From Rhodocyclaceae bacterium (GTDB lineage Bacteria > Pseudomonadota > Gammaproteobacteria > Burkholderiales > Rhodocyclaceae), in assembly GCA_004379165.1 (NCBI GenBank), contig NKXK01000022.1, positions 1-64,000 on the forward strand: a DNA stretch of 64,000 nucleotides, in the 5' to 3' direction. The translations under genes were made by a program, and so were the position numbers. The notes below the pieces were generated by a model that saw nothing but the letters and a program-made list of their open reading frames with translations, did no database searches and was not told where the DNA came from. Shown one piece after another: positions 4,641-64,000 of this stretch. Positions within the stretch are counted from its first letter, which is position 1, and the number at the start of each line of letters is the position of its first letter.

Positions 4641-4670
4641 GAAAAAGCCACCGATTTTGGTGGCTTTTTC
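4641..4670. terminator. Bidirectional terminator between cytochrome b561 and secF
   Basis: A perfect 12-bp stem (GAAAAAGCCACC with GGTGGCTTTTTC) with A-runs on one side and T-runs on the other lies between two convergent genes. Its right arm is shared with a copy of the dispersed repeat. Confidence 0.85.
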
Positions 4671-4686
4671 GTGTTGACCGCAGCAG
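4651..4686 (+). repeat. Dispersed 31-36 bp repeat, copy 1 (forward)
   Basis: Intergenic copy ending in GTTGACCGCAGCAG, overlapping the terminator. Family described in the findings. Confidence 0.75.
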
Positions 4687-4690
4687 TGGA

Positions 4691-5635
4691 TCAGACGACC
4701 GCGCCTTCTTCGTTGGCGCCTTCGATGACCTTCTTCTGCTTGATGAATTGCTCGCGCGAGACGCCCAGCCACATTACCAGCGGGCTGGCCACCAGCACCG
4801 AGGAGTAGATGCCGAAGCAGATGCCGATGGTCAGGGCCAGCGAGAAGTAATAAAGCGTTTCCCCGCCGAAGATCAGCATCGACAACACCATCATCTGCGT
4901 ACTGCCGTGGGTGATGATGGTCCGGCTGATGGTACTGGTGATGGCGTGGTCGAGAATCTGGGGGGTACTCATGCCGCGGACCTTCTTGAAGGTTTCACGG
5001 ACGCGGTCGAAGACGACCACCGATTCGTTAACCGAGTAGCCGAGTACAGCCAGCACCGCGGCCAGCACCGACAGCGAGAACTCCCACTGGAAGGCAGCAA
5101 AAAAACCGAGAATGATGATCACGTCGTGCAGGTTGGCGATGATTGCCGACACGGCAAAGCGCCACTCGAAGCGGAAAGCGAGGTAGATGACGATGCCGAG
5201 AATTACCAGCAGCAGGGCCATCGCGCCGTTCTCGGCGAGCTCCTTGCCGACCTGCGGGCCGACGAACTCGACGCGCGACAGCGCGGCACCCGGCGCCTCG
5301 GCTTCCAGCGACTGCATGACCGTTTCGCCGAGCTTGGCGGTGTTCTGGTCACCCTTCAGGGGCAGGCGGATCATCACGTCCTGCGACGAACCGAAGTTCT
5401 GCACCTGATAGTCCGAGAAGCCGGCCTTGCCCAGCGCGCCGCGGATCTTTTCGAGGTCCGCCGCCTGCTGGTACTTCACTTCGACAAGCGTGCCGCCCGT
5501 GAATTCGACCGACAGGTGCAAGCCCTTGGTGGCGAGGAAGAAAACCGCCAGCAGGAAGGTGACCAACGAAATGACGTTGAACACCAGCGCGTGGCGCATG
5601 AAGGGAATGTCTTTCTTGATCCGGAAAAATTCCAT
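4691..5635 (-). CDS. secF: Protein translocase subunit SecF
   Basis: SecF forms, with SecD, the inner-membrane complex that uses proton motive force to help pull exported proteins through SecYEG. The 314-residue protein has one N-terminal helix (from VFNVISLVTFLLAVFFL), the conserved VEFTGGTLVEV segment that opens the periplasmic domain, and five C-terminal helices including GYSVNESVVVFDRVRE. Length is typical. It lies 12 bases after secD on the same strand and ends at the bidirectional terminator. Confidence 0.96.
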   Translation of the reverse strand: MEFFRIKKDIPFMRHALVFNVISLVTFLLAVFFLATKGLHLSVEFTGGTLVEVKYQQAADLEKIRGALGKAGFSDYQVQNFGSSQDVMIRLPLKGDQNTAKLGETVMQSLEAEAPGAALSRVEFVGPQVGKELAENGAMALLLVILGIVIYLAFRFEWRFAVSAIIANLHDVIIILGFFAAFQWEFSLSVLAAVLAVLGYSVNESVVVFDRVRETFKKVRGMSTPQILDHAITSTISRTIITHGSTQMMVLSMLIFGGETLYYFSLALTIGICFGIYSSVLVASPLVMWLGVSREQFIKQKKVIEGANEEGAVV

Positions 5636-5647
5636 GGTCGTTTTTCC

Positions 5648-62845: not shown

Positions 62846-62869
62846 AAAACCCGCCAAAAGGCGGGTTTT
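62846..62869 (-). terminator. Terminator after panD
   Basis: A perfect 10-bp stem (AAAACCCGCC with GGCGGGTTTT) and AAAA loop, followed on the minus strand by a CTTTTTCTG tract. Confidence 0.88.
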
Positions 62870-62893
62870 CACAAGGGCGGCGAAGGCCAGCAA

Positions 62894-63277
62894 TCAGGCA
62901 GCGGCCTGCACCGGAATCTTGTGGCCGCGGCGGGTGATGCGGTTCTGCGAATCGACGTAGATCAGTTCCGGCTCGTACTTGGTCAGTTCGAGTTCGTTGT
63001 AGACCGCAAAGGTGGCGATGATCAGAATGTCGCCCGGGGCCGCGCGACGGGCAGCCGAGCCGTTCACCGAGATCACGCCCGATCCGCGCTCGGCGCGGAT
63101 GGCATAGGTAGTGAAACGCTCGCCGTTGTTGACGTTCCAGATGTCGATCTGTTCGTATTCCTTGATGTTGGCTGCTTCAAGCAGGTCTTCATCGATGGCG
63201 CACGAACCTTCATAGTGCAGGTCGGCATGGGTGGCCGTTACACGGTGCAGCTTGGATTTCAACATGGTTCTCTGCAT
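62894..63277 (-). CDS. panD: Aspartate 1-decarboxylase
   Basis: PanD decarboxylates aspartate to beta-alanine for pantothenate. The 127-residue proenzyme has the family start [29 protein letters not shown], in which the Gly-Ser bond is cleaved to form the pyruvoyl group, and [16 protein letters not shown]. An upstream ATG four codons earlier is possible, but 63277 aligns with the family. It is 90 bases downstream of panC. Confidence 0.96.
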
Positions 63278-63367
63278 GGTTTCACTCATCCAGAAAGTTG
63301 GGGGAAGCGCATTGTAACGACAAAATCCCTCGTGTCAACGCGTGTAATTATGGATATCGGCCGCAGC

Positions 63368-64000
63368 CTAAATCTCAATGTTATCAATGAGCCGTGTGGT
63401 GCCGAGGCGGCTGGCGGCAAGCACCACCAGTGGGCCGTTTCCGGCCTTTGCCGGGCTCAGGTCGGACTGTTGCCGGATGGCAACATAATCGGTTTTCCAG
63501 CCGGCTGCGGTCAACGCGGAAATCGCCTCGTTTTCGAGAAGCGCATAGTCGGTTCTGCCGGTGCGGACGGCGTCGCGGATTTGATTGAGCAGGCGATACA
63601 GGCGTGGGGCCTCGGCGCGCTCGGTTTCGGACAGATAGCCGTTACGTGAGGACAGGGCGAGGCCGTCGTTGGCACGTACCGTTTCGCCGCCAATGATCTC
63701 GATCGGCACCGCCAACTGGCGGGTCATGTTGCGGATGACCATCAGCTGCTGGTAGTCCTTCTTGCCGAACAAAGCAGCATCCGGTTGGACGCAGTTGAAG
63801 AGTTTGGTGACGACGGTGGCGACGCCGCGAAAGTGACCGGGGCGGAATTCGCCGTCGAGCACGTTCTGGATGCTCGGCGGCTCAATGAAGTATTCCTGCG
63901 GTTCCGGGTAGAGATCGGCCTCGGTCGGCGCGAACAGCATATCGACGCCGGCAGCGGCGAGCTTGTCGCAGTCGGCCTGGAAGGTGCGCGGATACTTGTC
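63368..64000 (-). CDS. panC: Pantothenate synthetase (3' part; continues beyond the window)
   Basis: PanC condenses pantoate with beta-alanine using ATP. The visible C-terminal 210 residues include [25 protein letters not shown] (KMSKS-like region and adenylate contacts), [17 protein letters not shown] and the closing [15 protein letters not shown]. The beginning, with the HIGH-type motif, lies outside the window. It precedes panD, its metabolic partner. A near match to the dispersed repeat falls in the segment [13 protein letters not shown]. Confidence 0.95.
63505..63530 (-). repeat. Dispersed repeat-like sequence, copy 15 (partial, inside panC)
   Basis: CTGCGGTCAACGCGGAAAT then CGCC. The encoded segment looks normal for PanC, so chance resemblance is possible. 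Confidence 0.4.

Follow-up and report, generated by a model that had tools for sequence, protein, structure and literature searches.

Introduction

Motifs for the uptake of self-DNA are known in two bacterial families only, the Neisseriaceae with their DNA uptake sequence (DUS) and the Pasteurellaceae with their uptake signal sequence (USS), according to the accessible part of one account (PMC12616744), and the accessible part of a terminator-motif survey of thousands of genomes reports motifs in the same two families (PMC13020248). For both USS and DUS, the available text of a further study puts on record a regular spacing with few close neighbours and an excess of perfect copies over copies with one mismatch, from which the decayed H. 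ducreyi departs (PMC1626085); another, likewise available in part, describes some USS and DUS copies that serve in terminators (PMC1852404). The USS features used for comparison below come from the accessible portions of PMC12616744, PMC1626085, PMC1852404 and PMC7811141, and further uptake-sequence literature, also accessible in part, is found in PMC3630211 and PMC5217627. Here we describe a dispersed repeat in a stretch of 64,000 nucleotides from a Rhodocyclaceae bacterium of the genus Azonexus/Dechloromonas (contig NKXK01000022.1, positions 1 to 64,000; the window), which in our judgement is quite likely to be a genomic DNA uptake sequence, with uptake and receptor both putative.

A full-text literature search found no published report of the repeat for this genus, bioRxiv and most subscription journals being outside its coverage. 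Several other kinds of chromosomal repeat have to be considered alongside the uptake sequences. Repetitive extragenic palindromic (REP) sequences and bacterial interspersed mosaic elements (BIMEs), miniature inverted-repeat transposable elements (MITEs) and Correia-type repeats are short dispersed intergenic repeats that occur in both orientations. Chi sites and FtsK-orienting polar sequences (KOPS) are short, strand-polar motifs that number in the hundreds on a chromosome and evolve in place, and the sites of MatP, SlmA and Noc follow a regional gradient on the chromosome.

Results

The initial annotation, made from the letters alone, had listed 16 places in the window where a sequence recurred (12 clear, 4 weaker), and a copy is indeed present at all 16. 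An iterated weight matrix gave 19 copies scoring 30.9 bits or more, with 12.0 bits for the best of the remaining sites, and in 20 first-order Markov simulations, scanned on one strand, the mean was 0.1 site above 13 bits and the maximum score 18.2. The clear copies beyond the first list have their anchors at 1392 (−), 29278 (−) and 61807 (+). We then used a matrix refined on 464 kb, comprising the window plus another 400 kb of sampled sequence, together 15% of the 3.06 Mb of the genome (G000). With this matrix 22 sites in the window exceed 14 bits, namely the 19 clear copies and three weak ones with anchors at 44074 (+, 18.9 bits), 49435 (+, 17.5 bits) and 55309 (−, 21.8 bits).

Across the 464 kb there are 142 sites above 14 bits, compared with one in second-order Markov sequence of equal length and one in the reversed 464-kb sequence, both strands being scanned in each control. 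The density of 306 per Mb extrapolates to about 940 copies per genome. The 19-mer of the initial annotation, with up to three mismatches, matches 12 times in the window against 0.02 expected. Genome-wide, CTGCGGTSAAC occurs 376 times (201 on the + and 175 on the − strand, a balance also seen in copy-rich relatives) against five occurrences of the pattern read backwards, and the spaced pattern CGGTSRAC-N3-RAWW-N7-AAWW, which catches 63 of the 142 matrix sites, occurs 399 times against none for its control. The family is dispersed, present in both orientations, unlike a CRISPR array and far above chance in a Rhodocyclales-type genome, as first proposed. The recurring sequence of the initial annotation is real, with the one amendment that its copies share a motif and are not near-identical. 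Strong over-representation on both strands is what is expected of an uptake sequence.

The motif, CTGCGGTSRACnnGRAWWW-n6-AAWWT, extends over about 36 letters and consists of a GCGGT core and, downstream of it, two A/T tracts spaced by 10 bp. Counting from the anchor C as position 0, there is a weak C at −3, CTGCGGT at 0-6, [C/G][A/G]AC at 7-10, G[A/G]A(A/T)3 at 13-18, then six mostly free positions, AA(A/T)2T at 25-29 and a weak GG at 31-32. The signal spans about −3 to +32 and its edges are sharp, with at most 0.11 bit per position outside −5 to +35 and a mean identity of 27% in the sequence beside copies, like unrelated DNA. Between the A/T tracts most positions carry at most 0.25 bit in the matrix of 142 sites, and this near-unconserved linker implies a shared motif rather than shared ancestry of the copies. 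The middle step comes in four variants among the 142 sites (with TCAAC in 52, TCGAC in 38 and TGAAC in 31), and the tracts alternate between AAAA, AATT and TTTT while their A/T content stays, which suggests that DNA shape or the minor groove may be what is read.

Orthologous loci bear on how the copies arose. The window has a copy in purB (adenylosuccinate lyase; Pfam Lyase_1 and ASL_C) at 1360..1395 (−, 36.3 bits; scores of individual copies are those of the refined matrix), and at 30 loci the scores at this site are graded from 36 down to −1 bits, with intermediate states, no gap and an unchanged reading frame; the residues read SPSTV in motif-rich members of the genus and SPATV in most motif-poor ones. 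At the antisense copy in a glpD-like FAD oxidoreductase gene (Pfam DAO and DAO_C; 21886..21921, +, 34.5 bits), 26 of 27 orthologous proteins are gapless, the 27th being a fragment. A third copy spans the secD stop codon and the gap between secD and secF (Pfam secD, secF; 5638..5673, −, 33.7 bits). At this junction the scores of 30 loci, read at a constant offset from the start codon, run from 35 bits down; the genome G002 reads low because of a one-base shift, and a separate scan finds its site at 27 bits.

Gaps were counted in DNA alignments of orthologues that covered the motif and 40 nt on each side, overlapping loci of the same genome making the rows partly non-independent. With an ordinary gap penalty none of 150 alignments (29 sites) had 20 or more gap nucleotides in the motif, as against 1 and 2 in the flanks, and gaps of 1-19 nt numbered 47 in the motif and 36 and 20 in equal flanking stretches. 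Because this test could break alignments at a true insertion, it was rerun with a very lenient penalty and with both flanks required, leaving out 20 duplicates, 35 pairs that lay at the end of a locus and 32 pairs in which a flank fell below 60% identity (best matches under 110 nt were also skipped, uncounted). Gaps of at least 20 nt within the motif were then found in 8 of 137 alignments (32 sites), as against 2 and 1 in the flanks. Five of the eight belong to the glpD-like site, which is gapless at the protein level, and the remaining three to two intergenic sites with anchors at 10032 and 4683.

These comparisons address the proposal of the initial annotation that the repeat is a small mobilised or converted element, that is, a mobile or retro-copied element like REP, MITE or Correia repeats. 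Its dispersal in both orientations, the intergenic location of part of the copies and the excess of gapped motifs under the lenient penalty would all suit such an element. The gapless purB and glpD-like proteins, the scores graded as from point substitution, the complete lack of long motif gaps under the ordinary penalty, the near-unconserved linker and the unrelated flanks do not, and we regard the proposal as largely refuted and scarcely credible. The two outcomes that the initial annotation had named as refuting it were not obtained: the genome abounds in copies, and orthologues do not all share the intragenic ones. As judged from these alignments, the copies appear to arise by point mutation in place and not by insertion, as uptake sequences do.

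Gene positions were taken from a simple gene caller, which predicts genes over 85% of the 464 kb and leaves 15% non-coding. The 142 copies fall within genes (81), between genes (52) or across a gene end (9), so that copies are over-represented between genes and many still lie inside them, another feature of uptake sequences; the earlier remark that the repeat is tolerated inside coding sequence was correct. The coding copies are antisense in 43 cases and sense in 38, and one frame dominates in each orientation, 28 of the 38 sense copies reading like (A/S)AV(N/D) and 26 of the 43 antisense copies like S(L/S)T(A/V). Spacing along the chromosome has a coefficient of variation of 0.73 compared with 1.04 ± 0.09 in 2000 simulations that preserved the coding/intergenic preference, none of which was as low, and six neighbours lie less than 500 bp apart compared with 23 ± 4 in the simulations.

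Some copies sit where a transcription signal might. They are common directly past stop codons and also in convergent gaps: of the 60 copies that lie outside genes or overlap a gene end and have two neighbours, 14 are found in such gaps, which account for 11% of intergenic bases (binomial P = 0.005). The copy directly past the secF stop codon (4651..4686, −, 42.7 bits) forms half of a terminator-like hairpin, its second half lying in GCCACC...GGTGGC-T5. A family of terminators, promoters or operators of a large regulon would account for such positions, but the copies within genes run in either direction and the spacing is regular along the chromosome, and terminator use of some copies is also known for USS and DUS from the accessible text of PMC1852404. 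We consider an origin as transcription signals highly improbable.

Orientation and density were examined in the complete genome G032. No replichore polarity was seen there in either class of GC skew, with +37/−36 sites in stretches of positive and +40/−34 in stretches of negative skew, and each of ten 20-kb stretches holds 12-17 sites. In G043, likewise a complete genome, the density is less even, from 2 to 13 sites per stretch. A chromosome-polarity signal of the KOPS or Chi type was rejected for want of strand bias in G032, and a regional nucleoid or division site was rejected on its even density.

The spaced pattern was also counted in relatives. Among 60 members of the genus, 33 have 17-561 matches and the other 27 have 0-8, the reversed control giving one match over all 60. 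In a scan of the family, eight genus members have 25-439 matches, compared with 0-3 in the 241 genomes from other genera, of which 29 have any match and 8 have a control match. The motif is confined to one genus, Azonexus/Dechloromonas. Exact matches to the 19-mer likewise come mostly from Azonexus or Dechloromonas, including isolates of Azonexus fungiphilus and Azonexus hydrophilus, and singly from scattered unrelated bacteria, fitting chance. In G059, from another family of the order, CTGCGGTSAAC occurs 23 times against two for the control, which is above the other non-genus genomes scanned and could be composition or a relic.

The spaced pattern undercounts dialects, as seen in G032 with 31 pattern matches compared with 147 sites of its own matrix in 200 kb. 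Dialect cores were found as 10-mers enriched over an order-4 Markov expectation and centre on CGGTCRAC in G000, G002, G032, G039, G043 and G237. The core is CTGCGGTSRAC in G000, CTGCGGTCAACCGGA in G043, CACGGTCAAC-sGGrAA in G002 (similar in G088 and G012), TGCGGTCGAC in G032, CACGGTCRAC in G237 and AGCGGTCGAC in G039. No such core is among the eight most enriched 10-mers of the motif-poor G018, G035, G044 and G047 (120-140 kb each), in which the iterated matrix drifted to codon periodicity and its site numbers are not evidence. The sampled stretches L196-L202 of G237 also contain another over-represented word (around AAGCCCCGGAAGC) that has no relation to the motif. On a purB tree (one gene, 50 of 53 rows, three of other length being dropped) the rich or poor state needs 10 changes, at least six of them across well-supported branches, compared with 16.5 when shuffled. 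In this one gene the motif-poor members appear nested among the rich ones, a patchy distribution as repeated loss would give.

The genome of the window encodes a ComEC frame of 794 amino acids (aa), a ComEA-type helix-hairpin-helix match above cut-off and, beside glmU, an operon with a 136-aa pilin of Pfam ComP_DUS followed by FimT-, PilV-, PilW-, PilX- and PilY1-like frames, labels given by resemblance only. This operon, including a 2628-aa repeat-filled PilY1-like frame (L068 6738-17632, G000:C4), lies in the largest motif-free gap of the genome's sampled stretches (16 kb). In the motif-rich G002, comEC is split by a 33.7-kb insert of 51.5% GC (G002:C33:109609-143310) that has no site, compared with eight sites in 26.3 kb of adjoining flanks of 61% GC (Poisson P = 4e-5). 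In G044, an insert of similar length, about 33 kb, splits comEC at almost the same position (G044:C1:2218694-2251156).

The remaining clear copies of the window are mostly intergenic. One lies upstream of queA (Queuosine_synth; 10000..10035, −, 46.2 bits), and two form an inverted pair between convergent genes (20667..20702, +, 44.2 bits, and 20767..20802, −, 45.7 bits; inverted repeat I2). Another is between convergent genes at 38891..38926 (+, 37.1 bits) and one between divergent genes at 31712..31747 (+, 44.5 bits). Further intergenic copies are found at 17206..17241 (−, 40.3 bits), 34580..34615 (−, 32.3 bits, directly past a stop codon), 35217..35252 (−, 51.0 bits, the highest score in the window), 37288..37323 (+, 29.3 bits), 56705..56740 (+, 33.5 bits) and 60813..60848 (+, 42.7 bits). 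Genes for a DUF1854 protein (Pfam; 29246..29281, −, 33.7 bits), for lpxK (Pfam LpxK; 46080..46115, +, 35.1 bits) and for an NYN-domain protein (Pfam NYN; 61804..61839, +, 23.1 bits by the refined and 31.2 by the window matrix) each contain one, and the last copy is close to the window end (63502..63537, +, 32.0 bits).

Other features of the window were noted. The end of a tRNA-Leu gene at 12683-12767 has a 58-nt perfect copy at 10212-10269, and the segment 10212-12767 resembles a small island, about 2.5 kb long, that has integrated at the tRNA; it is contained in the motif-free stretch from 10036 to 17205. A 55-bp perfect tandem duplication occupies 3359-3468, and the 114-nt arms of an inverted repeat at 34929-35042 and 39186-39299 are 74% complementary, probably reflecting related genes on opposite strands.

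Discussion

The genus studied here carries an abundant, strand-balanced and regularly spaced motif that originates in place, has dialects and is restricted to that one genus, and competence-type genes are present in the genome. From this we infer binding by a receptor, uptake and a drive by recombination. A receptor at the cell surface that belongs to the competence machinery, and for which a minor type IV pilin is the likeliest candidate, would bind the motif on free double-stranded DNA, and tagged DNA of the same lineage would preferentially be pulled in and recombined. New copies would appear where chance mutations happen to create them; those with a better fit to the receptor would be taken up and recombined more often, and the motif would accumulate on both strands wherever proteins tolerate it, at about one copy per 3 kb, a second copy near the first bringing little gain. 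The CGGTSRAC core may be the part read by the receptor, with the pair of A/T tracts, separated by one helical turn, acting via DNA shape or melting. Biased uptake with recombination would fit the in-place origin, the occurrence on both strands, the regular spacing and few close pairs, the coding-frame preference, the dialects, the patchy loss and the motif-free insert of G002.

A number of observations weigh against an uptake sequence. Perfect copies do not outnumber singly mismatched ones for either of the two cores compared (CTGCGGTSAAC, 58 perfect and 69 one-off copies; CTGCGGTCAAC, 35 and 72), and USS and DUS, with roughly one copy per kb, are about three times as dense. Two of six stretches of the genome tilt towards one strand (10/21, P = 0.07; 21/9, P = 0.04), in opposite ways and with positive GC skew in both. 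The ComEA-type match of G000 belongs to a frame of 331 aa and may represent a different helix-hairpin-helix protein, and neither ComEC, the ComEA-type protein nor the minor pilin operon distinguishes rich from poor members. An apparently complete comEC is present in 26 of 33 motif-rich members and in 17 of 27 motif-poor ones (Fisher P = 0.25), so that carriage of the motif is not explained by the state of this gene, and G002 and G008 are motif-rich despite a broken comEC. Matches to ComEA-type and ComP_DUS-family proteins also occur in motif-poor members, and ComP_DUS matches in other families of the order that lack the motif; a Pfam family this widespread is no evidence of receptor function. 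The presence or absence of minor pilins, examined as receptor candidates and including FimT- and PilE-like proteins, showed no pattern between rich and poor members. Breakage of comEC was also considered as a cause of motif loss; it is seen in motif-poor G018, G035 and G044 among several and is not significant over the 60 genomes.

The main rival is the binding site of an abundant nucleoid-associated (chromosome-organising) or chromosome-spacing protein of the genus, because such a site would share several of the features above and would also evolve by point mutation. A reader of DNA bends or of the minor groove would be well served by A/T tracts one helical turn apart, by their alternation at constant A/T content, by sharp edges and by regular spacing, and an intracellular site would likewise be missing from newly acquired DNA such as the G002 insert. 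However, G032 shows neither the replichore polarity of KOPS or Chi nor the regional gradient of MatP, SlmA or Noc sites, and loss in 27 of 60 members together with dialect switching within a genus would be unusual for chromosome maintenance and typical of uptake specificity. No nucleoid-protein site known to us is some 36 bp long, numbers about 900 copies and causes residue replacements in housekeeping proteins, and we consider this explanation unlikely.

If the motif is an uptake sequence, several dialects and repeated gain or loss within one genus would make the birth, change and death of an uptake specificity open to observation. A third instance, this time among free-living and wastewater bacteria, would mean that a language of this kind can originate anew in organisms other than host-bound commensals, and a core with A/T tracts would be a repeatable solution. 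Having motif-rich, dialect and motif-free members, the genus would lend itself to finding the receptor and to asking whether such tags function in partner choice or arise as a side effect of biased uptake.

Among known repeats, the motif resembles REP/BIME, MITE and Correia-type repeats in being short, dispersed and in both orientations, and differs from them in its non-palindromic unit, its location mostly in genes, its unconserved linker and the lack of an insertion footprint, no insertion into empty sites being found apart from the eight lenient-gap exceptions. With Chi and KOPS it shares hundreds of chromosomal copies and evolution in place, but it is long and non-polar. It is also, judged by its sequence and geometry, neither a Pasteurellaceae USS nor a Neisseriaceae DUS, although it would work like both if the present interpretation holds. 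Like the DUS (GCCGTCTGAA and its dialects, with the receptor ComP), it belongs to Betaproteobacteria, has the same distribution properties and dialects, and stands in a genome that encodes a minor pilin of the ComP_DUS family; unlike the DUS, a continuous 10-12-mer of GCCGTCTGAA type, it has an unrelated sequence, a discontinuous build and A/T tracts, which the DUS lacks. The likeness to the USS (Hin AAGTGCGGT, Apl ACAAGCGGT) extends to the layout, with GCGGT in the core and two downstream A/T tracts, A first and W/T last, and, as far as the accessible parts of the USS sources describe them, to hundreds of copies on both strands, regular spacing, intergenic enrichment, some inverted pairs, in-place origin and subclade dialects. 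It differs from the USS in its betaproteobacterial host genus, in a core that runs on to CTGCGGTSRAC or CACGGTCAAC without AAG, in its density of about 306 rather than about 800 per Mb and in its weaker ratio of perfect to one-off copies. The first tract lies 8-9 nt past GCGGT and the tracts are 10 nt apart, compared with about 2 and 12 nt for the USS in those sources; starting at positions 14-15 and 25, the tracts follow neither the Hin nor the Apl spacing, and the core is neither AAGTGCGGT nor ACAAGCGGT. These comparisons are consistent with a model in which Azonexus/Dechloromonas probably represents a third, independent lineage of self-DNA uptake, one that would have converged on the Pasteurellaceae layout of a GCGG-type core with phased A/T tracts, and not on the layout found in the Neisseriaceae, which are betaproteobacteria like itself.

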